Below, piece by piece: positions 1 to 62,084 of a stretch of DNA of 64,000 nt. Source of the DNA: Monosporascus cannonballus (taxonomy: Eukaryota > Ascomycota > Sordariomycetes > Xylariales); NCBI GenBank assembly GCA_004154925.1, contig QJNS01000117.1:125474-189473 (forward strand), given 5' to 3'. The translations under genes were made by a program, and so were the position numbers. Under the pieces are notes generated by a model, which saw only the letters and a list, made by a program, of their open reading frames with translations, ran no database searches and had not been told where the DNA came from. The first letter of the stretch is position 1. Every line of letters starts with the position of its first letter.

Positions 1-570
1 GACGGCCATCCGCGAGGAGCGGAAGGACATCGTCCGTTTCCTGCTTGTAAGGACTCTCCGCCAAACCTACCCCCCTACCGTCCCCACCCTCCCCCCCTGC
101 CCTTCTCCAGTCATTACCTTGGGCACTTCAATATCCTGGGTGCAAGCGAGATTCCCAAGACAAGAAAAAATAAGCAAGTTACTGATGCGGACCGTACACA
201 GGAGGCGGGCGCCGATGTCAACTCGCCGGGCGAGCACCTGCCGATCGTCAAGGCGCTGCGGCGGATGCACGGGGCCGACACGGAGGTGGTGGAGCTGCTG
301 CTGCGGCACGGCGCCGACCCCAACAAGATGTACCGCGGGCACAACGGTTACTTCCAGGCTATCGAGAACGGCGACTCCGACGTGCTGAGCCTGCTCGCCA
401 AGAGCTTCCCCCCGGACCTCGACGCCTGCGACGACGCCGGCATGACCCTACTCCAGGTCGCCTCGAGCCGCGGCTGGGACGAGGGCCGCCAGATTCTTCT
501 CGCCGCCGGCACCAGCGCTAACGGTGGTTCTGCTGCTGCCACTGCTGGTTCCGCGACGGCGCCGCGGTAA
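1..570 (+). CDS. Ankyrin-repeat protein, 3' end (partial)
   Basis: The window opens inside an exon (frame from base 2) that ends at a GTAAGG donor at 47. Splicing to a CAG acceptor at 199-201 (155-bp intron, phase 0) continues the frame at 202 to a TAA stop at 568-570. The second exon carries an ankyrin consensus: ADTEVVELLLRHGADPNK, followed by a weaker repeat (DDAGMTLLQVASSRGWDEGR) and a low-complexity Ser/Ala/Thr tail. Ankyrin repeats are protein-binding scaffolds, so a specific role cannot be inferred. The N-terminal part lies upstream of the window. The split of the repeat across the splice site supports the intron. I am confident of the repeat class and not of any function. Confidence 0.8.
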   Translation, partial: DGHPRGAEGHRPFPACKDSPPNLPPYRPHPPPLPFSSHYLGHFNILGASEIPKTRKNKQVTDADRTQEAGADVNSPGEHLPIVKALRRMHGADTEVVELLLRHGADPNKMYRGHNGYFQAIENGDSDVLSLLAKSFPPDLDACDDAGMTLLQVASSRGWDEGRQILLAAGTSANGGSAAATAGSATAPR

Positions 571-3500
571 AGGCGGGATGCGTTCGGGTATGCACCCGCC
601 ACCCGCCCATGCGCACGCGCGCATGCATTCGATCAGGTTTACGCGCCTATGCGCGGCTACTACGGACTTCACACCTACCGGTGTCACTCCTTATAAACGT
701 TTCTGTCCCCTTTATCGATGTATGCTTTTACATGGCTCTTGATATCCCCTCTTGCTCAGAAGGTCTCGGGGGACGCGGCAGGTAAAGGAAAGTGTGGGGG
801 TTTATTACGGACCGGATAACAAAAAGGCGGATGGGATGGTGCCGTCTGAGTGCTAGGGGACTGTACGCGTCTTCTCTCTTGTACGTTGATAGTTAACCCC
901 CATATACGCGCGGCTGCTAGACGGCCCCCTTGTAATGGTAATTGCGTTAAACGGCCCCACCTCGTTGTTATTCTCGATCTGGCGAAGATGCCCTCCGACG
1001 ACGTCCTTCGATGGGCGGAAACGCCCATTCCATTCATACCTCGATAGTCACGCCCGCGGCAGTCAACAAGGAAGTATCAATAGAGCGGGATCGCTGTGTT
1101 TGGGCAACAGAGACAGCCAAAAACCAGCGGTCTACCTGCTATTAGTGTTGGTTAGGAGAAGAAGGTCTTCGAGTTGAAGATCCCGGCTCGGGATAGCTCA
1201 CGGAAGTAAAGTATACCGGGCGGAAACAGCTACCGGCAGGGATGTGAAATTATTCCTTAGGTTTTAGTCGTCTTCTGGCTAAGACTCTACTTAATTAAGC
1301 ATAAGGCTAACTAATTTGAGTTGAGGTTTAACTATTGTTGTTTTTAGTTAGTCTTCCATATGTTTTTAATAAATTCAATAAATTTAAAATTTATAACGAC
1401 GATATAAACAGGGCAAATACGGGCTTATTACCCTGCCCGAAAGATATTTTTTCTACTTGAATTTCTCTTTAGCGATTAAAAAAAAAAACATATGCTTTTA
1501 ATACTCTTTTCCCAAAGAGCTCTTAATCAGACCTAGTTTTGTCAATCTTTCCTTGGGTTTGGTTTAATTCGTCTTCGTCGAGCAGGTTCCTAATTAAGTC
1601 AGTATTAGTCAAAGAGGTAAAATAGCTAAAGTCACAACTCTGGCGATTGGGGAGAGTCCGGAGGTCGTCCGCAGTGACCTCCCCCACAGTATTCGCGTCT
1701 GTCGAAAACGATGGGATTCCCGCAATCCTGCCTGTCTGTCTGAGTCAGCAGTAGTCGCGTATTAAGCGCGGCATCGGTCAGCGCGACAGCCCAACCAGTG
1801 TAGGAGGAGTAAAACATCGCGGCCCGTCGCCAAAAGGGGGGTTTAGGGGCGCAAACGAAAGTGCGGGTTATACCATGCGGTAATACGGTCGTAAGGGCAC
1901 ATTCCCGTCCCCAACCCGCCCGACGAGCAGCCATTGAGAACTTCCAGCAGAACTGGCGCCGCGTCGGCCTCGTCAAACGGGAACAACCGACCGCGGAGGC
2001 AACACGAGAGACGTTAAAGATAGCGCTCTATGAGCCTTTTTTTTTTCGAACCATACGTGAGGTAGATGTATCGGCCCGGGGTTACCCCTCTCGCTTTTAA
2101 CAGCAATAAGACGCCCGCTGAGGCACGGGCTCGTTAACTCGTTGACAAGGCGTGATGGACTTGTAAGATACGTATACGAGGTTTGCTCGTAGATATTTTG
2201 ATGCGATATGAAGCGCATTACTCCACATCGGACCGCCGTTGCGCGTCAGTCTGAGAAGCGGTGCGGGCATATCAGGGGTTAATAAATTTCTACGTTGTCG
2301 ACAGATTCAAAGTGTTCGGCCCCTGAGATCCTGCGGCGCCGGGTCCGCCAAATACCTTGCCGGTATAGAGTTGTTGTCTATTTTCTGTGTCTCTATCTAC
2401 CTCCTTTCACACTGAGATGGTCTACGCCACATACTCAGTCCGGCTGGTGAGTGGGTTCTTACAGAGTAGCGCCTGACCGGATTATGACGGGTTTCAGGGA
2501 AGCAGCGGAGCGAATCGTAGCCTCGTCTATGTGCATTATTGAGACGCTACAATGCAGATAGAGGCCTAGCCAAGAGCGACATGTTAATGTGATGGATTGG
2601 GCGTGCGGCTGGTCCCTTGACTTATAAGATGTTCTATCGCAGCCCCCCTTTTACGCGACCGCGGCATGCGATATAGGATAATACCACCAAGAGAAGGATG
2701 TTTTCGCCGCAGCAATCAGTCGCTAGAAATCACATCTAATGCCGTCTAAAATGTTGATCCGGTCGATCTGGAGTGTTATCTTGTAACATAGGTTTTACCC
2801 ACTAGTAAGAAGCTTCGGCCCAACTTGGTGGACAAGACCATAAACCTCAAATACATGAATTAATTAACTTCAGAACAAAACCACAGGGGTCCGGGTATAC
2901 CATAATGTGCCATTCTAATATAAAAGGGGACCAATCTACGCCCCCCACGTAATGCTCAGAACCAGCTAGGAACACGTGGAGACGATCACAGCAATATTCA
3001 CAAATGCTAGTCAGCGCAAGCAAAAGTAGAGTAGATAGGCATCGTTAACGTGATGCAACAGTATTATGTACTATTTAAACCCCTTAATCCAGACAGATAT
3101 ATGTACGGATCCGGGATTTGAAGCCAGGCCTCGTACAGCCCAATTCCGCCCGCTCATCTATACGCCTGCCATGCTCCCAGATGCCGTCATCGCTTTCTGG
3201 ACCGTGCTCACTCACGAAAACCGATGGAACGACAACAAGCACGCCGTGATGAGCTTCCCTGGGAGAAATTTCAATGGCAATATTCCGCGCCCATTCGCAA
3301 ACTCCTGTGCACCCCTCCCTCCCGCCCCCCTTCAGCGGCAAGATTGATATTACGTCTAGACATCGTGACTTATCAGAGACAGAATACGTACATGTCGTTC
3401 AAAATCAACCCCATGACGCCGGCCCTATGTGTAGCTGGAAAATATTCTATCAAACAATGCTTGTGTGATCGGTGAACATCTCGCTCAGCGTATGCCAGCT

Positions 3501-3583
3501 GCTTCGATTCCTCGAGTGCCAAGAATGCCGGATTAGCTGTCGTCCCACACGGTAGAAGTCGGATGTGCTGCGGCCAAGTCCTT
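571..3583. other. Intergenic, no supported gene
   Basis: No reading frame here has recognisable protein character. Roughly 1,250-1,620 is AT-rich and TpA-rich and looks like a short RIP-affected remnant. The rest has ordinary composition with scattered short frames that overlap on both strands. Confidence 0.5.
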
Positions 3584-5329
3584 CTATGGCGAAGCCCAGC
3601 CACCAGCAACGTCGACCCACTCGGCCAAGCAAGAACCTTCCTTGCCTTCGACATCGACAATATCCGTATCACAGCGGCAACGGCAGCCGACGCCGTTCTC
3701 CTTCTCTTCATCCCATTGAGCCCAATACTGGTCCTCTTCCTCCCTCTTATTCTCGGGAGTGGTCTTCTCCAAGAAGGGCTCATGGGGAAGCTGGCGGGCG
3801 GGCGCGTTTGCTGGGCAGTGCTGGATAGTCGTGTGTCGGTAACCGAAGTCGCGGAAGTAATGGATGTCTTTGACGCCCAAGAGAATACCGGCGGCGAGGG
3901 AATGGATAGGCGCGTCCCCCCACTAGCTCAAGTCAGTAACCACAGATGTGATAGGCAAGCGGAGACGACATATGGATACATACTCTTTCCATCCAGAAAC
4001 CGCCACTGCGGTCCATCATCTCGAAGAAGTCCTCGTATTCTTTGCTACGGAACCAGCTGAGCTTAGCGATCTCGAAGTTGGACCAGAAATGGCACATGTT
4101 ATACGATTCGCCCTCCATGGCCTCGGGATGGATTTCGGGCAAGCTGGTGTGGCCAGGATCGGTGCGCATGATCTCTTCTGGTAGCGGGGGTTTGTAGTTG
4201 GGGTCATTCTCAGGGACCTCCGGCGGCGGCTGTTCGCGTGGCTCAACAAACATCTCCCAGAGACCCTGGGAAGTGATGTTATTGAGGCGCTTGTAGGCAG
4301 AGGCGTAGCGGAAGATGTTGGGCACGGTCTCGCGGAGTTCTTTGACGGCGATAGTAAAGCCATAGGTCTTATTGTTCTCGATCATATGAAGGAAGGGGTC
4401 GCTAAGCCATGGTTAGTATGATGACCGGGGCACCAGTTCGAGGTAAGAAAAGACGCACTAGGTAATGTCGCAGAAATACTTGATCTCCGGCTCCAGGCGC
4501 CAGTACCATTCGTATTTGGCAAGGAGAGGGTGCTTGTAGAAAAATCCCGAGTAGAAGCGGCACATGGCATGGTAACTCTCCAAGCCACCGTACATGACAG
4601 CAGCGTCGCCCTGCTTCGCGATACCCTCTTTTGCAACCTTGGGGTCGATCCAGTCTGGGTATCCCCACATTTCCGGCCCAACCCTGCCGAACTCGACAGT
4701 ACCCGAAGTGTAGTTGCGGACAATATCCTTGAAGGTTTGGTTGAACTCGCCGTCATTTAGGAAGACGTAGGGGTAGTGGAACCATCGGTTGAAGTGACGT
4801 TCAATGGATTTGACAGACTGGATCACGCCATCAAGCTCCTTGTTCCGGGCGAGGACGACGAAAGCAGCGTTGGCCCGCGGCTTGTTGACTTCCTCTTTGG
4901 GGTCGAGACAGCCGGTGACAAACACCTTATCATGTTCTTCGCTAATTTTCCTATTGGCCGGAATTTCCCGGTCAGCGCCACGGAACGACGGATGCGACAC
5001 AGGTTGCGGTCATGGCCCGCATAACCCACTTACCTGATGGCCGGCGGAGCCCCAGCTGGCATTAATATCCTGCCTGGAGATGCTGGATGCCTCACGAAAA
5101 GCACAAGTATGAGAATGACGACGATGCAGGGGAAGAGCACGACGACGCCTAGCGGAACGGATATGCTCGAGTTCCCCCTTAACCTGAGAGGCCTCCGAAA
5201 GAAAGCGAGGCGCGATACCAGACGAGTTGTAGGTCGCGTCGACGTCCTCTCCTTCTCGTCGGCTAATGGAAGCGGCGAGGTTGATGAGTAGGGCACGCGC
5301 TTATAAGCGCGCCTAAAGAGATCCATCAT
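3584..5329 (-). CDS. GT15 (Kre2/Mnt1-type) alpha-1,2-mannosyltransferase
   Basis: A complete four-exon gene: 5034-5329, 4459-4950, 3984-4401 and 3584-3922. The introns are 83, 57 and 61 bp with donors GTAAGT, GTGCGT and GTATGT and AG acceptors; a tyrosine codon is split TA|C at intron 2. The spliced frame is 514 codons, usual for the family. It starts with a basic cytoplasmic tail and one hydrophobic segment near residues 57-80, giving a type II Golgi anchor. The catalytic domain has NAAFVVLARN, HYPYVFLND, YEWYWRLEPEIKYFCDI, and YNMCHFWSNFEIA, which holds the glutamate implicated in catalysis, then GGFWMER|WGDAPIHS across intron 3. The family transfers mannose from GDP-mannose to O- and N-linked glycans in the Golgi. 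The C-terminal tail after GYRH is longer and more acidic than in the yeast enzyme. The gene looks intact. Confidence 0.94.
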
Positions 5330-7420
5330 GGATCACCGGCTACGTGGCGTGCCCCAGTGCTATGGGAGAGAGGCAGAGCGTTGGAGGTGAGCCCAGCTAC
5401 GGTGGTGCAATGGTCCGATTAATCGCGTATGTGAAGGGAATTCATGTAGGCACTGTATAGGCGGATGGATGTCTGCGAGGGGGATAACAGCAAAGATGGA
5501 GAAGTGGGAAGGTTGATGGATGGATTGTTGATGAAGGCCCTTCCTCTTGTCTTGGCGTTCCAGAAGGCAATTGAAGAAAATTAGGGTCAATAGGGATCAG
5601 GATAGGGGCCACTTGCGGCACAGGCAAGTACAAAACGGTACAAGAGGGCTGGCGCTAAGCATGATCGAGATGTTTTGCCCAGCCGTGCAGGTATTGGACA
5701 GAATCGTTATCTGCCACGGCAAATGGTTGGGACAAGGTTGACCCTAGGTACCTATTAATATGTACTAGCTAATCCGCTGAACCTTCTTTCGAGTTTTTTT
5801 TTTTTTTACAGTACCCGATTTGTACCTGCTTGTACTGCTTAAAGCGTTAGTACCAAGGTTATGAATACGAGGTACAAATACACCTGCCACAATAGTCCGA
5901 TAAGCGCTGACACCGATAACATGCATGGTCCTCTAATTGGGGCTAGAACGGTTACGCGTCCGGGAGAAACACCAAAAACTTGGTGTCCCACTCCATGTGT
6001 TGCCTCCCACGGGGTATTTATCCTCCCTCTAAATCGCTAAATTTTCGGTGTCGACGTGTGGCTTCCGCGATGGTGGTCCTTATCCAAGTCCGGAGGGAAA
6101 CATGACAAGGCCAAACCTCGAGGTAAGGCACAACAAGCACAATTTGTTAACGTAACCTTGCACAGCGTCCATAAAACGTTTAGCCACAATCACCGCTAAT
6201 CGGGGGAGTAAGGCTGGTGCCAGTGGCTGATGGGGACCCCCGCGCTTTGAGAGGCGGTCTGTGCTCATATATATGCCAAGCTTTTGAATGTGTTACTGTA
6301 AGTCACGAGCTTCGTCGGGCTTGTCAGCATAGGTTAAACTCAACTTCACCCAATTGGAAACACCTTCTCCACGCGGCCGAGATGTGCTCTTTAATAGTGT
6401 TGCATGGATTCAAGTCCAAACGCTATATCCTCAAAGGCTCACTCGCAGCCATGTGATCACGCCTAGGCCTACTTATTCTATCCATCTAAGACACATACAC
6501 GTCGAAGCGCCTCAGTAAGGAAAAGAGCAAGACATCACATTTTGAGTTCTAATCCGGCCGAAACTCTCCGGCGTATGGGAACTTGTCTATAAATTCTAGA
6601 AGCAAAAGGTAACCTCAGAGCTTACAACTCACCATCTGATTATGCTGCAGCTACCGGCAATGTTGTTATATATATATATCTGTGGATGATAATGCTCATA
6701 GCCTGAGACGGGTTGATGCCCTTTACTGCACACCTCGACTCCTGAAGGCGTTGTTCAGGTAGCTGGCCATACAGTTTATCAGATACTGGATTCAATTTGA
6801 TATTGCATAGTTCCTCTTATTGGACCAGAATCTGATCTGCTTTCATCAACTCCTGATATTAGCCGGCAAAAGTGGAAAATCCATTCGATGTCCAATCACA
6901 CCCCTTTCCTTTTCGGGCTCCTGGTTTCTCGCCTAATTAGGTCAATTTATGTCCCTCCTTCCGCTACTCAAGAGAGGAGGTTGTTTCTGTTTTTGGATCT
7001 TTAGTAATGCAACTTGTCGTCACGAAGCTACCAGACGGCGACAGGATGTCCTCAGCTTGGCAGACATAGCCAATGAGTGGGAAGCAAGAGCCAATCAGGG
7101 CCATCGTAGCCCTTGCACTTAGAGGGTATAACTGGCCTATGTTCGACTGCCGAACCTTGAGATGGCGATCGGAAGCATGTTAAGACGGCTCTCCGCATTT
7201 TACACCACCACAAAGGCTTGGACTGAAGTGGCATTAGGAAGAGAGGATGAAGTGATGGCGGCGGAGAATATATAGTGCCAGCACTCTCGAGGCCCCGTGA
7301 CGATCCGCTCGGTCTCCCATTCTTGCGCGACCTAACTTAAGCAGCGAATATCTCTGCCGTAGGATCCCAAATCGACCCCCATAGTCATTATCAGGGTTTT
7401 GGGGTTACCAGCGGATCAAA
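5330..7420. other. Intergenic, no supported gene
   Basis: About 2.1 kb of ordinary composition between divergently transcribed genes (GT15 on minus, dehydrogenase-like on plus). It must hold both promoters. I see no conserved frame, repeat pair or RNA gene in it. Confidence 0.5.
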
Positions 7421-8837
7421 ATGCGTTGGATCTCTGCGTTGACAAGCGCGACTGCCCTTCTGGGTACAGGTAAGAGGCCACCTGATCCGAATGCTTGGAC
7501 GAAGCTAATGGATATGGCAAGCTCTCTCTCAGGAGCCACCATCGTTCCCATTCCCGACAAGCTGCTCCGGAGTTTCGGCGCCCAGATATGCAAACACGGT
7601 CAACTCGGGATGGCAGATGACGAAGATTGTGGGCGGCCTCCGCCAACCCAGAACGATTGTCTTCGATCCACTGGGCCATATGCTAGTCCTCCAAGCAACC
7701 ATGGGCATATCGGTCCACACCTTTGGAACAAACGGGTGTGTCAATAGCACGAGGACCCTATATTCCAACGCCGGTCTAAACCATGGACTCACCCTCACCC
7801 CTGACGGAAGAACTCTTTACGCGAGTTCGCAGACCCAGGCGTGGTCATGGACCTATGACCCCGTCGCAATGACGCTGAGCAACCAGAGGGTCGTGATCAA
7901 CGGCATGGCCCAGGGCATCCACTCTACGCGAAGCATCATGGTCTCTCCCACAAACCCGAACCTTGTTATCGTCTCTGTGGGCAGCAACAGCAACTGGGAC
8001 TACGCTACGTCCGACCCCCGCACGGGCCGTTCCATTATCAAGGTCTTCGACATGAGCGCGGTCCCGGGCAATGGCTACAACTACAATACGCAGGGAACTG
8101 TCCTCGGCTTCGGACTTAGGAACTCTGTCGCTATGTCTTTCGACCCCAACGGCCACGTCTGGACATCCGAGAACAGCGGCGACAGCTTCACTCGCAACGG
8201 CCAGGATATCCACAACGACAACCCGGCCGAGGAGCTGAACTATCGTAAGTGTACTCGCCGACAAACCCACGTCCGATCTACTTTCTAACACCGGTGATGC
8301 GCAGTGGGCGATCCCGCGAACCCCCCGGCCAACAACTGGTACGGCTACCCGACCTGCTTCACGGTCTGGAGCACGCAGCCCTTCCCGGGGCTGCAGACGG
8401 GGTCGCAGTTCACCCTGACGCCCAACGCCAGTTTCACGGACGCCACCTGCGAACAGCGGTCGGTGCCGCCGCGCCTCAGCTTCCAGGCGCACATGGCGCC
8501 CATCAGCCAGGCGTTCGACCGCGCCGGGTCAAACCTGTACATCACGTTCCACGGCAGCTGGAACCGACAGCCGGCGAGCGGCTACAAGGTGCTCGAGATC
8601 CCCTTCCGGAGGGACGCCAACGGCAACTACGACCCGGTCCCCGCCCGCAACGCGCAGACCTTCGGCGTCGACGTCTTCGCCGCCCAGAACCCCGGCGGCT
8701 GCAACTCCCCCGGCCTGACCCAGAGCACCTGCATGCGCCTCGCCGGCCTCGCCTGGGACGCCGCCGGCGAGCGCCTCTTCGCCAGCAGCGACAACCAGGC
8801 AGAGGGCGAGATCTTCGTCTTCCGGAAGCGCGCTTGA
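7421..8837 (+). CDS. Secreted glucose/sorbosone dehydrogenase-like beta-propeller protein
   Basis: Three exons: 7421-7469, 7522-8244 and 8305-8837, with introns of 52 and 60 bp (donors GTAAGA and GTAAGT, acceptors CAAG and GCAG). The spliced frame has 434 codons. The first intron was placed so that the signal peptide (MRWISALTSATALLG then ALS) joins the mature frame beginning SCSGVSAPRYANTVNSGW. The body has propeller-type strands: GGLRQPRTIVFDPLGHMLV, HGLTLTPDGRTLYASS, AQGIHSTRSIMVSP, GHVWTSENSGDS and ITFHGSWNR. These match the fungal branch of the glucose/sorbosone dehydrogenase superfamily, related to PQQ-dependent quinoproteins. Whether it binds PQQ or a copper/haem partner, and what it oxidises, cannot be read here. 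Secretion is inferred from the signal peptide. The alternative acceptor CAG at 7530-7532 would break the frame. Confidence 0.88.
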
Positions 8838-10933
8838 GGCGTACCAAGGTCTGCGTCGCCGTGGGATGGAAGATCCCTACCCTTGAGGGAGGCTGCCGCA
8901 AGGGTTTCATGAGTCTGTTGTTCGCTTGCGATTACTGTACCTAGTTCGAGACGTCTTTTGGTTCAATACATGCTGCTCTCTTGAGCTCTTCTTCCCATAA
9001 ATCACATACATTAACCGCCTCCTTTCCTCCCGTGCGAAGGGCTAACGGTGTCGAGAAATGTGACTTCACCTCGATCTATCTCCTGTAGGCCCCTAAAACC
9101 ATAAGCGAGACATCCCGCAGGACGCCATAGCAAGGGCGTTGGCTGATTCGCTTACTTTCCGCCCGAAATATCTTGAAGGCGTCGCGCCAGTCTCAAGCAA
9201 TGGAGAAACCTTAACTTCGAGGGAAATAACTAGCACTGCAGATCAACAAAAAGAAAAAGAATACCAACTTCGCAGCAAATATTTCAGAGCAGGACCCTGG
9301 CCATTCTTCGATTTTTTTTTTTTGGCACGAATGCGGAAATAGCCAGCGCGCATGAAGCGCATGATGTCTATTACGTGTTGTGCTTCTCGGCCCTCGTCTG
9401 GGACGTTTTGCCGGGCATGCTGCGTTCTGAAACCGTGTCCTTGCGGGTACTTCCAGGAAGATGTCAATGAACACCTATACTCCTGCCCCAGGAAGCTACC
9501 GTTTCTCACCATCTCGGCCGCGTTGGCGATCTCCGAGGTCATGATTACGACCCCCGCTTGGGGTGGTGGCAGCGCTTCGACGCGGACGGACCGGGGCACT
9601 TGGCGTGCCTGTGTTATAGCCCCCTCCGGTGGATGGTCGCTGGCGGTTGCCTTGGGTCTTCTTCCTGTTGCAACTCTGGTTCTGCCCTGGCCGGTTCTGA
9701 TTGCGTGGGATTTGCGCGCGGGAGGGGAATAGGGGTCGGAGTGATACCCTTCTGACGGGAAGGGAGTCCGGTTGGTTGGCAATGGGCAAGGTGAATGAGG
9801 GAGGCGATATCATTAACACGCAATGACTAAGTGATATGGACTGCCTAAGACGATGAGAACGCTGGCTTCAAACAACGGGAGGCGAATCGCGATGGTGTGG
9901 CACCTTGCTTGTACATCTACAAGGCGGTTCCGGCTCACCGGTACCTCGAGCTTCGAGTTGGAAAGTTAATACCAGGTGCGCTGCCCTCTAAGTCCCGCTC
10001 TTTTCGCGTCATAGTATCTCTACCGCCTCCAGTCTTATTGTTATCGTCTGTGCAACTTACCGCCCTCAAGTTAGGCATACCTAGTCCATTCAATAAGCAA
10101 TCGATTGTGTACACGTTACATAATTTCGAAGTATGGCCTCAATAACCGTAGGTCCCCATGAAATAAGGTCTTGCGAGTATGGCAATGCCGGGCAATGTTC
10201 GCCCTAACCTAGAGTGATACATTGCCTACAAGCAGTGACAGAACAATCCGTCAGAGTAACGTGAGGTACTGTACTTGCGAAAGCGACTTCGCCAAAAACA
10301 CCAAATGGGGCAATTAAACGCCGAATATCCTGGCGAGCCTGTTGCGTAATCCGATGACTGGTCACAAACGGGTTCTATATTTGCGAAGCAGCTTCTCTAT
10401 ATGAGTTCTCCGGGAAATCCCAGTAAGTCATTTATCGGCAACTCTAGCTATGTCAATGTAATGTCCTACTATCCATTCGGACCATTCCCCCCGATATGAG
10501 CAGCCAGCGAGGCTCCCAAGCAATATCCGATATTGGAGATACCAGGGTGGAATAAACTAGAGTCTCTGTAGGCACCGCTGAGGGCGGAATTTATGATGCG
10601 TTGACGGAGAATTAGAAACCGCTTTCTAACAACGGAAGCCCGGTTCGCGCAAAACTTACCTCCTACAACATCGTGAGTAAGGGGAGTTTTCAGTTGGAAA
10701 GTATCTCGCACCGTCATCGCCACTCAACTTTTGATGCACCCCTGATAGGAGGCTTTCATGTTGGAATAGGGGTTAGAATAGGGGTAAGGCGACTCAACCC
10801 CTCTCCGTAGTACCTAGGGACCTAACGGATATTAGACCTATTTTAGACGACTTATTCAGATCGGCTGACCAGTATCAATTCCAGACTGGCCATCTCAGTT
10901 AAGTCGCTAGGTTGCGCTTCATCCCAGGCTCTG
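8838..10933. other. Intergenic; opposing uncharacterised frames at 9,243-9,782
   Basis: Two long overlapping frames occupy 9,243-9,782, one on each strand (179 codons on minus, 126 on plus). Neither has a domain I recognise. The minus frame ends in a Lys-rich run produced by a poly-A/T tract, and neither has splice signals that extend it convincingly. They may be one real hypothetical gene and its shadow, or nothing. The rest shows no gene. Confidence 0.3.
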
Positions 10934-11139
10934 TGTCAGGTGCCAAGGTGCGGCCCCCTTTCCGGGGCCCAGCGACCCACCAGTGTGGCTCCAGTTTGTG
11001 TATATATAGGGGGGCTTCGCCCCCGAGTAGTTAGAAAAGGGCAGGCATTAATGGTCATCTATTTACTACCCATACTATGAACCACCTGCTGGGCTGCTTC
11101 TTCTGCCTCTCACTCCGTACTTTACCATTTTCCCTGACA
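10934..11139 (+). repeat. LTR copy A of family E3 (206 bp, isolated)
   Basis: Begins TGTCAGG and ends CCTGACA, so it has TG...CA ends inside a 6-7 bp inverted repeat. It matches, in opposite orientation, the LTRs at 15,819-16,023 and 41,879-42,083 over its whole length, including a TATATATA stretch next to a GGGGGCTTCGCCCCC hairpin. The 5-bp flanks are CTCTG (left) and CTGCC (right), which do not match, and no polypurine tract is next to it. It is therefore either an old solo LTR with lost duplications or a recombination product. Confidence 0.8.
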
Positions 11140-11662
11140 CTGCCTTAGGCTCTTTTTAACGCTGGAAGCAACCGAACCAAGATATGCAGGCTGGCTGGAC
11201 ATGATTATAGAAGTTGGACTTCCCTTGAATCTTGCTGCCTATTACCAATGTCACCGAGACCTATGACGTCACGTACATATTATAATTATCATATATAATG
11301 GTGTGTATTGGAGGTGAATCAGGTTTGTGTTCTCCTTCTGTTTAGGGTAAAAATAGGTTCACCGTCTGTAATAGGTTAACAAAGTCTTCAAGAGAAGCAA
11401 TAATATCTTGCCAGCTCCTAGTAAGTACTAGTTTCTTCTGTTTATGGAGCCTGAAATAATGAATTGTTGAGGCAAAATTTTTCTCTTTCTCACCAGCTTC
11501 AAAAGGGTCGCCAAGTAGGGGAAGAGTATCTCACAATCCGCTTGGTCGCATCGGGCAGGGGATACTGCAAATCCAAAATAGTATTAAAGTCTCTATGGTG
11601 GTTAAAGACGAACCTTGTTATGATACCAGAGAAGAATAACCAACGCCAGGCGCATAGTAGCA
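11140..11662. other. Intergenic, no supported gene
   Basis: Ordinary to slightly AT-rich DNA between LTR copy A and the 3' side of the RING gene. No repeat pair or conserved frame was seen. Confidence 0.4.
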
Positions 11663-11814
11663 TTACTCCCATTCATTCGCCTCATTATCTCGTGATCTCA
11701 AGGAGTCATACGCATGCTGGGCCATGGTCATGAATTGGTGTGCCAGGAAGGCCTGGACAGCATCTCTGTGACTGGGATTCAAAGGCTCGCGCGTTTGGTG
11801 AGAGCGATCAAAAA

Positions 11815-12447
11815 TCAGCTGCAGTGTGCCCCGAACACTATCCTCAAACATTCGCGGCGGCACCCGCTGCAATAGGGGTGAACTCTGCCGCCCTGTGGAA
11901 CTGAGATAGGAACTTTACGTGCTAGTCCAAGCAGCTCGTCTGAGCTGAATTCGCGGACGCGGATGAAATGTCCGCATGCGTGGTGTATGAGAGGGAAGCG
12001 ACATGTTGGGCACGCAGGAATTTCCCTGGACATGAATTTGGCGTCGGTCCAGCTACGCAAGCAGCTCGCGCCAAAGATATGGCCACAAGGTGCCACTGTG
12101 AGCTCCTCGACCGGCCAGTCATCGCAATTGCTCATGATGGCATCAGGGAATTTCAATACCGAGCTCAAACAAATCCTACAGGTTAGCTCGAGCCTGGGTG
12201 CTTTCTTCCCGTTAGCGTTTCGGTTCTCGAGGTGGCAGTAGACTTGGGGCCAGTAATCACATTCCGTAATCATCTCCTCTACATGCTCAACTTCTTCGGG
12301 GGCCGCGCCATTCTGGGCGGGCTTGACCGTCTCGGCTGAGGAGTTCTCCTGGTTCATCTTGGGTAGAATTTTCCGGTAACGCCTCGTAGACAGTAGCAGG
12401 GAGCCTGGTTGCTGGTGTTTTCGGCTCGAACGTAGAACGGGAGGCAT
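11815..12447 (-). CDS. RING-finger domain protein
   Basis: A 210-codon frame. Residues about 90-155 carry a RING-type zinc-binding pattern: CRICL, then APCGHIFGASCLRSW and CPTCRFPL, with the two cysteine pairs and the Cys-Gly-His core visible. RING domains usually bind a ubiquitin-conjugating enzyme, so an E3 ligase role is plausible but not shown. The region after the RING (KVPISVPQGGR...CSGCRREC) resembles a short second Cys-rich segment. The frame then ends in a tail of ten unconvincing residues at 11,815, while an overlapping minus-strand frame at 11,663-11,872 stays open for about 69 more codons of better character (FEDSVRGTLQLIFDRSH). A one-base shift or an unrecognised short intron near 11,850-11,930 could join them. 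The start is the first ATG; Met at about 12,357 is an alternative. Confidence 0.75.
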   Translation of the reverse strand: MPPVLRSSRKHQQPGSLLLSTRRYRKILPKMNQENSSAETVKPAQNGAAPEEVEHVEEMITECDYWPQVYCHLENRNANGKKAPRLELTCRICLSSVLKFPDAIMSNCDDWPVEELTVAPCGHIFGASCLRSWTDAKFMSREIPACPTCRFPLIHHACGHFIRVREFSSDELLGLARKVPISVPQGGRVHPYCSGCRRECLRIVFGAHCS

Positions 12448-12906
12448 CTTGCGGGGTGTTGACCGTGACTCAATTAACGTCCGTTGATTGTGGGTTATTT
12501 GCGGCTACCTTTTAGCCTATTGCCTGGGATATATAAGCACCCAGTACGGAAGATATGAACATGATAACGGTACAACACAAAACGCTAACAAAGACAACGT
12601 GCTCACCGAAAAGGCCATTGTTTGACTGAACAAGACGCTCGTTACCACAAGGTAGAAGAGCTTGTTACACTGAAACGAGGAGTAAGACACGAAAGTGTCA
12701 ATGAACAAGAGCATTGTTACAGGGCTGACTTTTTTTCGACAGGTACCACGTGCACAACCTCGGCCACGACGTTGGCTAAAGGCGATCTTGAGGAATGGCC
12801 TACGAATGAACCTAAAAACTGCCGTATGATTGAATAGCTTCGATATAGAAGTTGGCATTGAGGTGTACGATGGTATATAAGCCATGAACTACCCCACTCG
12901 TGTTCC
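12448..12906. other. Intergenic, no supported gene
   Basis: Between the RING gene start and the end of the hydratase-like gene, both on minus. Overlapping short frames only. Confidence 0.4.
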
Positions 12907-13842
12907 TCATGATTTCCATTCCGGCTCTCGCTTCTCAATGAAGGATCGTATTCCCTCTTCTGCATCCGCGCCTTTTGCATGCAGTGCCATTGCTCTGGCA
13001 GCCCACTTAGCAGCATCCTCATAACCATCTCCACCCTGATCATCGCCTTGCATGCCAACCTGCGTCCAATACGCCCACTTTCCAAGAGCCTGGGGCTGAC
13101 CGGCGGTCCGACAGGCCAACTTTTCCACCACTTCAGATACCCGCTTCTCCAAAGCCACATCCTCGTCGGCCACGGTTTCAACAACACCGCCTGGCAACTG
13201 GTCCGCTCTCACTGGCTCCGCTAGAGCCAGCATTCTGTAGGTAAATGCGTTGCCTAACCTCCTAGACAGGACGGTGGAAGGGGAGGTACAAGGAAGCCCG
13301 ATCGAGGCCCCTGGCAATTGAAATTGTGTAGAGGCGCATGCGATTGGCAGGTCGGTCGTCAGCGCAAGCTGTGCGCCAGCAGCCGTAGCTAGGCCTTGGA
13401 CTACACCGACGACGAGAGCTGGCGACCTGCGGATGAGGCTCATGACCTCGGCGCATAGCGCAAACATCTCCGAGACTTCGCCGCGGGTCATGCCGCTGAT
13501 CTCTTTTAGATCGTGTCCGGAACTGAATACGGGCCCCTCGCTGCGCAGGACCAGAACGTTCGGGAGGCCTTCTCGCGCTGCACTCCACATATGGGGATCG
13601 ACCAGCCATCCATGCTGCTTATGGTATGTTGCATATGACGGCTTATGAGGGGATCTCCCTAACTTATCCAGCAAGGATGGCTTAAATCTAGGAAGAAATA
13701 GTTGCTTCCCATCCTTCGACGAGTTGTATTTGATCAGTTGCTCTTTCAAGCTTTTGAGTACGCCAAGGGATAGTGCGTTTCTCTGCTGCGGATTGTCTAG
13801 CACCAGATATGCCGCTTTGGCTGGTAGCTTTGGCCAGCTCAT
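12907..13842 (-). CDS. Enoyl-CoA hydratase/isomerase family protein (ECHDC3-like)
   Basis: A single-exon frame of 311 codons with a crotonase fold. It has an N-terminal AYLVLDNPQQRNALSLG strand-helix, the first oxyanion-hole loop in FSSGHDLKEISG (about residues 105-120) and the second in VVQGLATAAGAQLALTTD. GHDLKE followed by AAGAQLA is characteristic of the ECHDC3-type branch, which is mitochondrial in animals and whose catalytic activity is uncertain. Residues about 40-90 form an insertion relative to bacterial homologues. I see no clear equivalent of the second catalytic glutamate of true hydratases, and no strong mitochondrial presequence at this start. An upstream Met at 13,948 would need a splice that breaks the frame, so I keep 13,842. 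Confidence 0.87.
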   Translation of the reverse strand: MSWPKLPAKAAYLVLDNPQQRNALSLGVLKSLKEQLIKYNSSKDGKQLFLPRFKPSLLDKLGRSPHKPSYATYHKQHGWLVDPHMWSAAREGLPNVLVLRSEGPVFSSGHDLKEISGMTRGEVSEMFALCAEVMSLIRRSPALVVGVVQGLATAAGAQLALTTDLPIACASTQFQLPGASIGLPCTSPSTVLSRRLGNAFTYRMLALAEPVRADQLPGGVVETVADEDVALEKRVSEVVEKLACRTAGQPQALGKWAYWTQVGMQGDDQGGDGYEDAAKWAARAMALHAKGADAEEGIRSFIEKREPEWKS

Positions 13843-15023
13843 GTCTAGGCAGAGGAAATATATTGAGTGGATTTTGATGGGTAAACCTGAAAGTAGGTCC
13901 TTCTTCCGTCGGGAAACGGTGATTAAGTACGTAACGAGATAAAGCCAAAGCTCGTGTTACAATAATGGATGGTTACGTAATTCTCAGTATGGGGAGAGCA
14001 ATGATATTAGGAAACATCCAATTAGGAGAACGTCAAGTAAGAGAACGCTCAATGAGCCCGAGATGGATTTTCTCTGTGAACCTTGCGGACACTCGCTAGT
14101 ACGGAGCTTAAGTTGGCCGGGGGCGTAACTGAGATTGTACTGTATAACACTTTATGTTGGCTTGGTAGAAGGCCGCCTGAAGTGTACCTCCGCTTATGGT
14201 ATGCTGCAGCCACTTGGTGTTTGGCACAGATACCGTTAGGCGGATTGGCAGAAGATTAATATAGGTAATGCGGGGCCCCCGGAACAACGTTATTCCGAGG
14301 TGCTTCAGGGATTCCCGTCTAGGCCTTGATGACTAACCAAGCTACCCCTTTTGTCAACGGTGTTTCAACATCGAATGCGACTCCTCGTATATGTAAATAT
14401 ACTGAGCTTGTCTCCTGAGCTTTCTTATAATATCGAAATAATCTATGAAGGAAGTATCTAGTAAGCTAAGTGGGTTTGAAGAAAGGAGGAAAGGGCTTCA
14501 AGCTTAACAGGTAGCTGTTGCACTTTAGCTAGTTATTTAGCACTTTGCTCTGAATTAACACCATTGCAGGCTTTATTGAAAGTGACGTAAGCGGGTAATC
14601 TAGGATGACCATGGTGCAAGATGCTCATTTACAAAAGGTTGTTACAGCTAAATCCTTTTCGCCACCTGTCTGAGATATAATATAAGCTGAAAAAACGCCG
14701 GTTCCTATTTAAGGCAGCGGGCGTTTTTCAGGTATCGATATAAAAGTTAGCTCTACCCCGCGATATCTTAATGGAATTTTCTTTTCCGAAGGGGACAGTG
14801 AGCATAGATGTAGATATATTCCATGGATCATTTAATAAATACTGAAATGTTGGTATAATAACCAAACGAATGCATTGAAGTTGGATAAAAAGCAATTCCA
14901 TGTACATGGGTTTTGAATTGAAGCCAATTTATATCGACGTCCCACCAAATCCAGACTCTCCAAGAGCTTGTGGTACCATTTGTTCTTGCAGATTCTTTTC
15001 CGTTCCCGCATGTCATCCATAAC
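13843..15023. other. Intergenic with a small inverted repeat
   Basis: No gene supported. A near-perfect 13-bp inverted repeat (CTGAAAAAACGCC at 14,687-14,699; GGGCGTTTTTCAG at 14,719-14,731) with a 19-bp spacer could form a hairpin. Nothing shows whether it is a MITE remnant or chance. Confidence 0.4.
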
Positions 15024-15705
15024 TTAGCGGCGAGCGTCCAGGGCCCTCTGGATCTCCCGAATTTCCTTGTTCGAAAGGTTCTGGAAGAGAACAGAGTCGG
15101 AGCCCATAGGGATCGGGTTGCCCTCTTTGTACTTGCCAGTGATGACGGTGACCAACGCCATACAGGAAGAAGGGACTCCCTTAACGAGAACATCTTGTAG
15201 GAACTATGTGTTAGCTTCCTCTTCTCCCCATTTGTAACGACCGGGTAAAACAACCAAAATGGGATGCGATAGGTAGGATGGGACTCACTTCCAGGCTTTG
15301 GAGCAGAGAAGTGGAAAGTGGCAGAGCCGAGCTGGCTTCGGCAGTGCTTCCAAGCCAGTTCGTTGTGTTGCTGGCGCTGCTGGATGCGGCCTGCGCTGCG
15401 GTAGTTGATTTCCGCGCTGCCGTCGTTGATTTCCATGCTGCCGTCGTCGATTTCCGCGCTGTCGCCGTTGATTTCCACGCTACGGCCCCTGATACCATTC
15501 ATGACGTTTCCTGATACCATTCATGACGGTTCCTGTAACAAGTGCGGCTGCGCTGACAGCGGAGGAGCTGGCAGCGAGGCCGGCAGCAACAGCTGGGGGG
15601 ATGACAGCGAACCGGGGAGCCAGGCAGAATTGCACCAGGGCCAGGGCAGCAAAAGCAGAGATAGCGATCTTTCTGGAACAAGGTATTTTGTTTATCGGGG
15701 GTATT
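15024..15705 (-). pseudogene. Small secreted-protein gene, frameshifted
   Basis: Two exons are visible: about 15,289-15,705 and 15,024-15,193, joined by a 95-bp intron with donor GTGAGT and acceptor CAAG. Exon 1 begins with a signal-peptide-like segment (KIAISAFAALALVQFCLA) and runs through an Ala/Ser-rich stretch into a heptapeptide repeat. Exon 2 ends in a well-formed tail with VPSSCMALVTVITGKYKEG and REIQRALDARR before a TAA stop. Two tandem 22-bp units at 15,488-15,509 and 15,510-15,531 shift the frame and bring a stop; reading with one unit keeps exon 1, the repeats and exon 2 in a single frame. No ATG is in frame at the 5' end. Function is unknown. It lies 114 bp from the edge of the retrotransposon nest. 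Confidence 0.6.
15401..15481 (-). repeat. 21-bp tandem repeat (4 units) in the secreted-protein pseudogene
   Basis: Four near-identical 21-bp units sharing the core TTGATTTCC/TCGATTTCC. In the minus-strand frame they encode a heptapeptide repeat with the pattern (S/A)-x-E-I-N/D-x-x. Confidence 0.85.
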
Positions 15706-15818
15706 GTTAATTGATGTTTGAAAGAGTTGTTTGTGAATAAGTGTAAGTTTTAATAACTAACGTTTAAGGGCTGGGTGCTGGAAGTGATTGTTGATGGATG
15801 TTAAAAACTGACTGTTTG

Positions 15819-16023
15819 TGTCAGGGAAAATGGTAAAGTACGGAGTGAAAGGCAGAAAAAGTAGCCCAGCAGGTGGTTCATAGCATGGGTAGTAAATAAA
15901 TGACCATTAATGCCTGCCCTTTTTTAACTACCCGGGGGCTTCGCCCCCTATATATATACAAACTGGAGCCAAACTGGTGGGTCGCTGGGCCCCGGAAAGG
16001 GGGCCGCACCTTGGCATCTGACA
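15819..16023 (-). repeat. E3 3' LTR (copy B)
   Basis: TGTCAG...CTGACA ends, with a TATA stretch and GGGGGC/GCCCCC hairpin; flanked on the left by TSD GTTTG. It carries almost none of the C-to-T changes seen a few hundred bases further in. Confidence 0.9.
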
Positions 16024-58270: not shown

Positions 58271-58509
58271 AAAAATGTCATGGCCCAACGAGCTACGGTC
58301 TCCAGAAACGGTCTGCTACGACCCAACCACGAGTGCGCGGTGGGGCAGGTTACGTGACGGATCACCAACTTACTGGTGGTGAGCCAGTGAGCCGGATCAC
58401 CAACTTACGAGTAGTAAGCCAGTAAATTAAATTAGGATATATACGCTTATTATTTCTATAATTTAAATAGCTTTAGCTTATAATAACAATTCGTTATTTA
58501 AAACGTTTT

Positions 58510-58527
58510 TAATATTACAGCCGTGGT
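58510..58527 (+). promoter_or_regulatory. Left half of the viral-type origin stem-loop
   Basis: TAATATTAC at 58,510-58,518 followed by stem arm CAGCCGTGGT (58,518-58,527). The bases before the inferred nick (58,516|58,517) belong to the LTR target. Confidence 0.8.
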
Positions 58528-58532
58528 ATTTT

Positions 58533-58593
58533 GGTGTCTTATTAGGGTATGCACCAATCGGATATCTGGAATTCCGGTTTTGTTTTGGTGTCC
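58533..58593 (+). repeat. Candidate Rep-binding iterons
   Basis: GGTGTC occurs at 58,533-58,538 and 58,587-58,592, each preceded by TTTT, and in inverse orientation (GGACACC) at 61,940-61,946 beside the stem. In geminiviruses, short repeats near the stem-loop bind Rep. Confidence 0.5.
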
Positions 58594-58872
58594 TACCAAT
58601 GAGAAACGTAGGACTTTTTAGCGCTGGTATCCGTGCATCGGGTATCAGCTCTTCCGGTGCTAGTAGATGCGCTAAGGCTCGTATTTAAATTTAGCTTGCT
58701 TCTTCGGGTTTGGCCTTTTTTGGCTTAATCTTAATGTATGCGCCAAATCTCGTATTTTTGCGCATTAGCATTACTTACTTTATTTACAAATTTTTTTTTC
58801 TTTTTTTTATTTGCTTAATTCTTTTTTTTCTTTATTAATTATATTTCTTTTCTAGCTTCCTTTAATACTATA

Positions 58873-60082
58873 TTCGGTTATCGTCGTCCTTATCGTCCTT
58901 ATTGCCGCTATCGCCGCTATCGCCCCAGGTTATATCTTAATCGTCGGTACGGTACTGTTCGTTATTTTGGATATGTACGTCGTTATTAACGTTTTCTAGT
59001 TAATTTATTTATTTATTTTCCGCGTTAATATATTGCTGGTTACGAGGTTTGGGGTTTTGATTATATTAAAAGGTTTTTACCTTGTTATCGCCATATCCCT
59101 AAAGCTGGTTAATTTATTTTTTCGAAATTATTTTTTCTTTTTCCCGCGTTTCGTATTCGTAGGTTAAATAGGAAACGTTTTGAAAATTTTATTTTGTGGT
59201 ATTCTTTTTTGAATTAATTTTACGACGATTATCTTTTTTGGCCGTATTACGATTTTTCTTATTATTATGTTTAAAGGTTTTTTAGGCAGTTATTACCGGT
59301 ATTTCGATTATCCGTACGTATTTTATCGGTTTGTACGGGTTATACGAAAAATCGCTTTTACTAATTATTACGTTAAAAAATTTATAAAATAATTTAATAG
59401 AATTCGGTATACGCCTATTATTTATGTAAGTAATTCGGATTTTATTTTTTTAGTTCCTAATAATAAGATTTATTAATCCGATAATCGAATTACGCGGATT
59501 ATTATTACTAGCGGCGTTCGGTTGGATTTTGATATTGTCGTATTGCGCAATTATATTATACGCGTTTTAATTATCCGAACTTATGATAGGCCAGGTAATA
59601 ATATTTTTGTTCCTGAGTTTTCTGGCTGTTAACGTTTACTTGATACCGTTAGCCGTTTTTTTGGTTCTATTAGGGCTATCGATATTTGCGTATTTAAGTT
59701 TTTATTTGGCGATAATATTATTTTAAAACGTATAAAACTTAAAGCCCTTGTTTATTGGCCTATTCGGCGTAACGTTAAAAAACGCGTTTTCGTCGACAGG
59801 GTTTATAATAGGTGTTTTATTTATAAGGTTAACGATTTAGAAAATCGACCTTTTAATATTTATATTCGAATATTACGGAAGCTGGAATTTAGAAATAACG
59901 TTAATAATTTTTTGCGCATTATTAAAAATGTTCAGGTTAATTTTAATATTTATTTCCTTATTATGGTTCATATTTCCGCTTTTTTTGTTAAACGTATTTT
60001 TCGGTTACCCGATTTATTTTTAATAGATATTAATTCCGAAAATAAGGGTAAATTATTAATACATAAATATTCGGGCTTTTAA
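58873..60082 (+). pseudogene. Capsid-like fossil of the endogenous CRESS element
   Basis: About 400 codons. The first part, frame of 58,873, opens with a strongly Arg/Tyr/Pro-rich stretch (58,873-58,970; runs such as YRRPYRPY and YRRYRPR). It continues through several TAA codons to a second basic patch (RIRRLNRKRF, 59,150-59,180). Near 59,200 the better frame changes by one base and runs to a TAA at 60,080-60,082 with only a few RIP-type stops. Small CRESS viruses usually have one virion-sense gene encoding a capsid protein with an Arg-rich start, and size and position fit. I recognise no specific capsid fold, so the name rests on position, size and the basic N-terminus. Confidence 0.6.
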
Positions 60083-60249
60083 TTTCGGGTTTTTTTTCGG
60101 CCTAATATTTTATCAAATAATTAATCGGGTTAATCGGAGGTTTTTATTATTATTTTAGATCGTATTACGAAATACGCGTTATTTGCAGTAAAATTTAGGA
60201 ATATTCGAGTTATACTTTATTAGAAAAAATTAAATATTTAATATTAATA

Positions 60250-61714
60250 ATTATCGTCGTTTTCTATATCTTTTAAAAATAAATTTAATGCCTTTATTTT
60301 GTTATCTGGCATTTTTATTCCTTTTATTTTTATTAATAAAGGTTTTTATATTTTTATAAAAATGCCATTTTCTTTTATTTATTTTACATTTATTTTTGCA
60401 TATAAGCGTAGATTTTCGTTCATTAAATATATGCATAATAGCCCCTAGTTAAGAAAATACATTTTCCGTACGTATTTGTCCGTAACGGAAAAATTTTATT
60501 AATAACCGAATATTTATTTATAATATTTTAATATTTATTTATTGTATAAGAGTATATCGTTTACCATTATATATTGATTATATAGAAATAATATAAAAAT
60601 AATATTTTATTTTCTTGCTATATAAATATGGGGTTTTAATAAATGTATTTATGTTATTTTATATATACGTATTTTTCCATATAAACATAGCGATTTCGGA
60701 CGTATTATTTTTCCGTCAGCTTTAAAATTTACTTAATTTACGTTATTACTTTAGGCCCCCGCCAGGGGGGGCCGTTTGCGGCCATTTTTAACTATCGTTA
60801 CGTTATTAACGTTCCTGGGAAAATCCTTTTTCCCCTTTTCCGGTAAGCCTTGGCGAACCTTTAGGAAGGGGGGTATTTAAAGGGGGGTTGGCCCCCAGAA
60901 GTAAGGAAAAGGTGATTTTTAATCAAAATTCTTATTTACGTAAAGGGTTTTTCAAATTTTCTTTAACTTATTCGAAGGTTTTTTCTAATAAATCTTATAT
61001 TTTTTTAAGTTTAGGTAAAATATATGTTGGTACCGGAGGTTTAAAATGGTCGTTTATATAAAAACGTACGTTATCGTAATTAAATATTAACTTTTTAAGT
61101 ACGTCCGACTTAAAGCGAAAAATAATTTTTTTTTAGTTAATAATTATCGTTATTATTAACTAAAAATCTTTTTTGATTTTTTTTTAAAGATTTCGGTTCT
61201 GTTATGTCGCCGCCGATGTGGATTAAACGTTTTTTGTTTTTATGGAAATAACGCCAAGCCGTTAATCTGTTACGTATTTTGGCGATATTTAGGTAAAAGT
61301 TTTTAATGTTAAAATGGCGGGGGTTTTTTAGGTTTTTTTTTGTGCCCATTTTCCGATTACGTGGAAATATAAGGTACCGTTTTTATGTTTTTCGCAAATT
61401 GCGTAATATTATTAAAAATTAAATTTGTTAATCCCTGTAATAAATTTTTATGGGTCCAGGTGGTACTTTGGGTATGTCAAAAAGATATATTTCGCCGTTA
61501 GTCTAAATCGGCCCGTATTGTCGGCAAGTGGGTCCTTTAAAATTAATTTTGGGAAGTTTTCTCGTATGTTTGGTATAGTTTGTGCGGTACTGGTAATTCC
61601 TGCTTCGAGGTCGAAAAAGTTATCTGGTTATTTTTTAAAAAGCCAGTTATTTATAATTACTTTTAGTATATCTAGGATAATAAAATCGAAAAGTGATTTT
61701 AAGTTATTAAGCAT
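60250..61714 (-). pseudogene. Geminivirus/genomovirus-like Rep fossil
   Basis: From ATG 61,714 on minus, about 77 codons precede rolling-circle motif I, seen as FLTYP at 61,469-61,483. Motif II lies at 61,355-61,372 with the first His of HxH replaced by Tyr (LYFHV). One base out of frame, the piece 61,349-61,137 carries the GRS-like segment (about 61,285-61,320) and motif III with its tyrosine and lysine (YFHK, about 61,239-61,250). A linker runs to a stop at about 60,925. A GC-rich block of about 170 bp follows, then at about 60,680-60,720 the KSL-x-L-x-G approach to a Walker A loop, degraded after the glycine. A VND near 60,565 may be the helicase Walker B. RIP-type stops, the frame shift and the lost histidine make it inactive. 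The GRS segment separates this from plasmid and circovirus Reps. Confidence 0.82.
60745..60912. other. GC-rich block inside the Rep fossil
   Basis: About 170 bp with runs of C and G and little RIP mutation, including the near-palindrome GGCCCCCGCCAGGGGGGGCC (60,754-60,773). It falls between the Rep endonuclease and helicase parts. It may be a later small insertion, or a relic of an intron, since some genomovirus and mastrevirus rep genes are spliced there. Confidence 0.5.
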
Positions 61715-61940
61715 TAATGCCTGGGTCGGTATTGTTACCTGGAATAACTAACTTAATAACATAATTTATAATGTTATTTTGTGAATATGGAATTAATGTT
61801 TGTGTTTAACTTATTATGTGATATGGGATATTGGAATTTTTGGTATTCTTATGTACTTTATTTATGTTTATTATTTGTTAGTTCGTTTCTTTATGTTTGT
61901 TTTATGTTATGCGTATTAGTTCTTGTTATTTGGAGTAAGG

Positions 61941-61970
61941 GACACCACGGCTGAAAATTTTTAATATTAC
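61941..61970 (+). promoter_or_regulatory. Right half of the viral-type origin stem-loop
   Basis: GACACC, then stem arm ACCACGGCTG (61,944-61,953), then AAAATTTT and TAATATTAC (61,962-61,970). Inferred nick at 61,968|61,969. Confidence 0.8.
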
Positions 61971-62084
61971 AAGATGCAATACGTTATTATATTGATTATT
62001 TAAAATCTTACGATACTTCTATTAATATAAACCCGTACGACTAAGGTTTAATAGTTAGTTAAACCGCTTAGCCGTTACAAAAAA

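Follow-up and report, generated by a model that had tools for sequence, protein, structure and literature searches.

A probable geminivirus-type replicon family inserted at its own origin sequence in Monosporascus cannonballus

Does a fungal chromosome that carries a complete virus-like unit hold a lone endogenous virus genome, or one copy of something that inserts again and again? The question is raised by a 3,452-base unit in contig QJNS01000117.1 of the ascomycete Monosporascus cannonballus (assembly GCA_004154925.1), where the 64,000 nucleotides from 125,474 to 189,473 of the forward strand were analyzed; this whole stretch is called here the window, and coordinates are window positions. 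An earlier note, made from the sequence alone, had described the unit as a full-length endogenous genome of geminivirus or genomovirus type. In place of such a lone genome, the window holds one copy of a dispersed and site-specifically inserted family, for which four probes gave 29, 28, 35, and 24 element matches in the 88.8-Mb genome (the fourth gave 41 matches in all, 17 of which lie in host flank alone and are not counted as element). Very probably, this is one of dozens of dead, unit-length copies, mutated by repeat-induced point mutation (RIP), of a geminivirus-type circular Rep-encoding single-stranded DNA (CRESS) replicon that integrated at its own origin sequence.

Ends and copies of the unit

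The insert and its terminal features are the following:
58510..61970, plus strand: whole insert including the nonamer at each end, 3,461 bases (unit, 3,452)
58510..58518, plus strand: left TAATATTAC
61962..61970, plus strand: right TAATATTAC
58518..58527, plus strand: left arm of the origin stem
61944..61953, plus strand: right arm of the origin stem
58533..58538, plus strand: GGTGTC repeat, iteron-like
58587..58592, plus strand: GGTGTC repeat, iteron-like
61940..61946, minus strand: inverted GGTGTCC, iteron-like

The insert starts with TAATATTAC-AGCCGTGG and finishes with CCACGGCTG-AAAATTTT-TAATATTAC. Its termini pair perfectly over 10 bp, and in the circular form TAATATTA is placed in the loop, this being a hairpin on a circle only, with its arms at opposite ends of the insert. 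The ends, the nonamers, and the 10-bp stem with its loop sequence (58518-58527 with 61944-61953) are as the earlier note described them. Iteron-like repeats of the GGTGTC type flank the stem on both sides, and the inverted repeat has the form [AG][AG]ACACC in 10 of 18 copies; geminivirus iterons likewise adjoin the origin stem.

Both ends are kept in 18 of the 20 loci fetched, and 16 of these two-ended copies measure 3,434-3,561 bases; L046 and L051 are longer, with an inserted stretch of ~1.8 and 2.4 kb, respectively. A terminal stem of at least 10 pairs (G-T allowed) is found in 16 of the 18, the exceptions being L052 and L056, and, among the ends examined, 16 of 20 on the left and 16 of 18 on the right carry TAATATTA followed by C or T. 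As exact TAATATTAC occurs in the flanks at 0.27 per kb, its presence at the unit ends is not due to chance; over the whole window there are five occurrences for a chance mean of 5.1. Hand joining of neighboring matches from six genome searches gives ~35-40 element loci, a lower bound. A single left end is present at each fetched locus, and never more than one right end, and thus no tandem units were seen within ~600 bases of flank at the 20 loci. In the 18 two-ended copies, stop-to-stop frames reach 149 codons at most (larger open-frame figures from two genome searches run through stops).

Two groups of close copies are distinguished, burst A (L039-L043 and the window copy, six copies) and burst B (L044, L047, and L050). 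Pairs within burst A differ by 5-16 transversions and 130-155 transitions per 1000, and burst B shows 6-7 transversions per 1000. When burst A is compared with the window copy, transversions account for 18-44 of 503-574 differences, and the transitions fall mostly in TpG/CpA and ApG/CpT contexts. This mutation pattern is RIP-like, although not confined to CpA.

More distant relatives of the element ends or genes, with ~40-53% protein or 70-82% DNA identity, are present in contigs C606, C601, C163, C100, and C148 of the same genome (G000), and this level of identity suggests that they may be older subfamilies.

Two genes selected before integration

The coding remains of the unit are arranged as follows:
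61448..61627, minus strand: Rep piece with motif I (FLTYP), an open reading frame (ORF) identified by profile and by alignment to protein P0001 (see below)
61137..61382, minus strand: Rep piece with GRS-like segment and motif III (Y-x-x-K), its frame broken relative to the motif-I piece
60990..61136, minus strand: Rep central part, weak Gemini_AL1_M match in one copy (E 0.061)
60741..60909, minus strand: GC-rich stretch, variable and free of codon bias, that separates two parts of Rep and may be an intron
60247..60740, minus strand: Rep C-terminal part, with codon bias
58870..60172, plus strand: broken virion-sense gene, its start rich in Arg and Tyr, a putative capsid gene by position; the probable end is taken from L048, where the frame is longer

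The Rep motifs that had been noted on the minus strand (FLTYP, degraded H-x-H, GRS-like segment, and Y-x-x-K) are present in that order, the degraded H-x-H lying between FLTYP and the GRS-like segment, and motif III having the context W-R-Y-x-x-K in ORF 61137-61382. Profile A2, built from ten degraded Rep ORF pieces, found one protein among 3,414 candidates, P0001 (E 1.2e-18), an intact environmental protein of 153 amino acids from a 643-base ENA contig, and in Pfam this protein corresponds to Gemini_AL1 (E 5.6e-12), the catalytic domain of geminivirus Reps. Each of the two Rep pieces aligns with P0001, their order being kept, and motif II, degraded in the chromosomal copies, is intact in it. 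In the PDB, P0001 matches six Rep sequences (E 6e-8 to 3e-5) along with 14 other entries, mostly cytochrome oxidase subunits (E 0.02-0.94), and it also matches 15 phytoplasma plasmid records (E 4e-9 to 8e-4); as a protein query it returned itself only, with no match in phage records. A motif-I profile gave 13 PDB matches; the five strongest are Reps (E 0.002-0.005), one more Rep appears at E 2.6, and the others are unrelated (E 1-3.7). The five PDB matches of one motif-I-to-II piece (E 0.11-0.19) are all named Rep. A structure model of P0001 together with two window pieces reached a predicted local distance difference test score (pLDDT) of 39.8. Judged from these sequence comparisons, the assignment of a Rep with a geminivirus-type catalytic nuclease domain is secure.

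Toward the C terminus, the Rep pieces match unrelated Pfam families (E 0.04-0.41). The GC-rich stretch of ~170 nt at 60741-60909 contains short hairpins, is variable among subfamilies, and has an RNA fold that is not special (z -0.11). Spliced Reps exist in genomoviruses and mastreviruses, and an intron is therefore a reasonable guess for this stretch; a foreign insert was considered and rejected, because all 12 of its genome matches are at element loci.

On the opposite strand, the second long fossil with an Arg-rich start that the earlier note had pointed out is also there, at ~58870-60082 and probably extending to ~60172. This virion-sense gene and the minus-strand Rep run toward each other and meet near 60.2 kb, and the intergenic region holds the origin. 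The claim of a complete unit in a chromosome, with origin, geminivirus-type Rep, and an opposite-strand gene, is supported. The gene itself stands, and the capsid identity that had been given to it is putative: the protein lacks a detectable relative, its model has a pLDDT of 34, its one PDB match is at E 9.7, and PHROGs offers two weak families of unknown function. The Arg/Tyr-rich start and the gene order are the two features that point to a capsid.

Moreover, both genes carry the record of past selection. Codon positions were compared in 16 copies, the two interrupted ones being left out, with transversions common to at least two copies taken as shared and those of a single copy as private; the plus-strand gene was tested over 59213-60082, the frames of this gene and of the Rep N part came from ORFs, and the Rep C frame was assigned to an ORF once its bias was known. 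At codon positions 1/2/3, the shared transversions of the plus-strand gene number 40/35/90 (p 5e-8), those of the Rep N part 8/4/19 (p 0.003), and those of the Rep C part 14/6/31 (p 7e-5). For the plus-strand gene, Rep N, and Rep C, respectively, the counts are 8/8/4, 5/6/3, and 5/5/6 for changes private to one burst copy and 44/36/39, 18/20/31, and 19/28/29 for those private to another copy. Three noncoding control stretches are flat (9/10/11, 17/15/17, and 7/5/5), and over 58873-59212, the initial 340 bases of the plus-strand gene, which lie outside the test, the bias is absent or unclear. Because shared changes are biased to the third position and private ones are not, the replicating source retained two working genes as its lineages diverged, and nothing preserved the copies once they were inserted; that is, the plus-strand gene and Rep were selected before integration and unconstrained after it.

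Target sites and mode of insertion

The window copy sits in an abundant host repeat, R1, which lies on both sides of it:
58429..58509, plus strand: host repeat R1, left of the insert
61971..62077, plus strand: host repeat R1, right of the insert

Three other copies, L039, L041, and L047, share one identical site within another host repeat, R2, and outside the nonamer the flanks are unrelated among most copies. Unoccupied sites were represented by 10 copies of R1 and 10 of R2, taken from the best matches listed, and by L086; occupied and empty sites are then different copies of R1 and R2, not alleles. All 21 unoccupied copies read through one nonamer-like site; an insertion at such a site thus brings in a single unit and no other bases, with no further duplication. 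Exact TAATATTAC is found in four of the 21 (2/10 R1, 1/10 R2, and L086), and if either C or T is accepted at its last place, in 7/10 R2; three of the ten R1 copies (L098, L101, and L106) have extra bases some way left of the site.

These data bear on an ordinary terminal inverted repeat (TIR) transposon that would make a strict 9-bp target duplication of TAATATTAC and would have picked up a Rep gene, with its transposase encoded elsewhere. Such an element would leave what is seen at the ends, short inverted repeats flanked by the same 9-mer on either side, and the descriptions by 9-bp duplication and by one nonamer per circle yield the same DNA. However, the sequence that would be the duplication hardly varies and is the very nick sequence of CRESS replicons, the would-be TIRs pair as the origin stem, and Rep and the plus-strand gene were selected. 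The earlier note had named a TIR element with an unrelated transposase as the outcome that would overturn it, and none of 25 pieces matched a transposase family in Pfam, a search limited by the degraded frames. We consider this transposon improbable.

A few chance integrations could have been multiplied later by duplication of the surrounding repeats, as L039, L041, and L047 share both flanks, L052 shares the left one, and both host repeats occur in high numbers (2,924 and 1,941 candidates at first look). In their R2 flanks, L039, L041, and L047 are separated by 36-48 transversions per 1000, whichever pair or side is taken (48 and 39 for L039-L041), whereas the elements differ by 10 per 1000 for L039-L041 and by 58 each for L039-L047 and L041-L047. 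Since the L039-L041 flanks have diverged more than the elements (P 2e-9 left, 6e-6 right), these two copies were inserted independently, unless the elements were made alike by gene conversion, which is the way out for repeat duplication. For L047, the flanks have diverged less than the elements, not significantly flank by flank, which fits a separate insertion also. Other copies have unrelated flanks and the fetched unoccupied repeats are intact. Multiplication by repeat duplication is, in our estimate, very improbable.

In the favored explanation, a geminivirus-type replicon integrating at its own origin sequence, the source would have replicated as a circle in the nucleus, Rep would have nicked its own circle and a chromosomal look-alike within TAATATTAC and then joined them, and RIP-like mutation would have killed the inserted copies. 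The plus-strand gene of the source would have encoded its capsid.

Several results weigh against this explanation. Among 10 single pieces compared with Pfam, one gave Gemini_AL1, at E 0.1, and 8 further pieces gave no Rep family there, with unrelated families matching weakly (E 0.02); profile A2 had no match in the PDB, and one Rep piece alone recovered cytochrome oxidase subunits only (E 0.49 or more). A search with PF00799 was uninformative, as it found nothing over the whole genome and likewise nothing in 14 control genomes; 7 Rep pieces had no match in Pfam to the superfamily 3 helicase domain expected in such a Rep, and the Gemini_AL1_M match (E 0.061) is below the cut-off. Among 1,948 candidates, none matched the plus-strand protein at E <= 1. 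Also, the other unoccupied sites are off TAATATTAC by one to three positions; the original target letters are uncertain, and some of the site differences plausibly come from RIP.

Three side observations concern the surroundings of the copies. L052 (G000:C207:24766-29569) has a left flank like R2 and a right flank like R1, the latter in register with the window copy, which suggests that element copies recombined or that two target sites were joined. In the window, a less AT-rich patch immediately left of the host repeat holds two 31-nt direct copies that are 87% alike (58357-58423). The GC content of the window is ~42-63% over 1-16000 and mostly 15-35% over 16001-64000, with a few richer patches near 41-46 kb, an abrupt change like that of RIP-shaped two-compartment genomes.

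Nature of the source and known systems

As to what the source was, we tentatively suggest, with a confidence that falls just short of even, an undescribed geminivirus-type lineage with site-specific Rep-driven integration as its normal life, a CRESS provirus or transposon that would use origin look-alikes as attachment sites and keep a selected virion-sense (capsid) gene. It is also quite possible, if rather to be doubted than assumed, that the source was a CRESS-derived transposon without extracellular stage, in which Rep would copy the element into a circle and put it back at nonamers, by the same insertion mechanism as given above, and the plus-strand gene would be some other selected helper. 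The dozens of copies, the two tight bursts (six copies at 5-16 and three at 6-7 transversions per 1000), and a Tuber precedent (PMC3198968) argue for such a transposon, as does the lack of a relative in the viral contigs scanned, five IMG/VR scans with Rep pieces, P0001, and one plus-strand piece giving no confirmed match. Against it, the plus-strand gene has an Arg/Tyr-rich start and a capsid-gene position and was selected, features that another protein could still have.

Rep-driven integration of eukaryotic single-stranded DNA viruses has been proposed (for example, PMC7493932), but a single fossil gives little by which to follow it. In this family, many copies keep exact ends, 21 empty sites are available, and the same place in one repeat was hit independently, which makes the join readable almost to the base; the comparison of selected shared changes with neutral private ones is a clean fossil test of a living source lineage with both genes. 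The family thus bears on whether geminivirus-like viruses and rolling-circle transposons interconvert in fungi.

Liu et al. (2011) report Rep-like genes in ascomycetes and one basidiomycete and a geminivirus-like transposon in Tuber melanosporum that has TIRs of 37 bp and two ORFs for transposase and leaves no obvious target duplication (PMC3198968). Like the present family, that element combines many dispersed geminivirus-type Rep copies in a fungus (42 Rep genes or remnants in Tuber) with terminal inverted repeats and no obvious target duplication. Unlike it, the family ends in a CRESS origin, shows no transposase in the pieces scanned, carries a selected opposite-strand gene, and has a target that could be deduced from empty sites. 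Whole Rep-plus-Cap units in Entamoeba and Giardia, for which Rep-mediated integration is called likely in the passages cited from Kinsella et al. (2020) (PMC7493932), are similar in being complete Rep-plus-second-gene units in chromosomes. However, those cases involve other hosts and other Rep lineages, with Cap identified and exogenous relatives known, and a nonamer target and a series of empty sites, present here, are not among the features described in these passages. The layout of a plus virion-sense gene, a minus-strand Rep, and an origin in the intergenic region is that of geminiviruses, as outlined in the text cited (PMC5014472). In contrast to Geminiviridae and Genomoviridae, the unit is 3.45 kb long, belongs to an integrated family, and has a plus-strand protein without detectable relatives.

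Helitrons and Replitrons are HUH nuclease elements that insert without target duplication; the present family is like them in both respects and differs in its geminivirus-type Rep and CRESS-origin ends. No report of fungal CRESS units inserted at TAATATTAC came up among the open-licence papers searched, judged by titles and abstract openings. A complete unit, exact origin ends, an empty-site target, repeated insertion, and a selection test are combined in the family described here.
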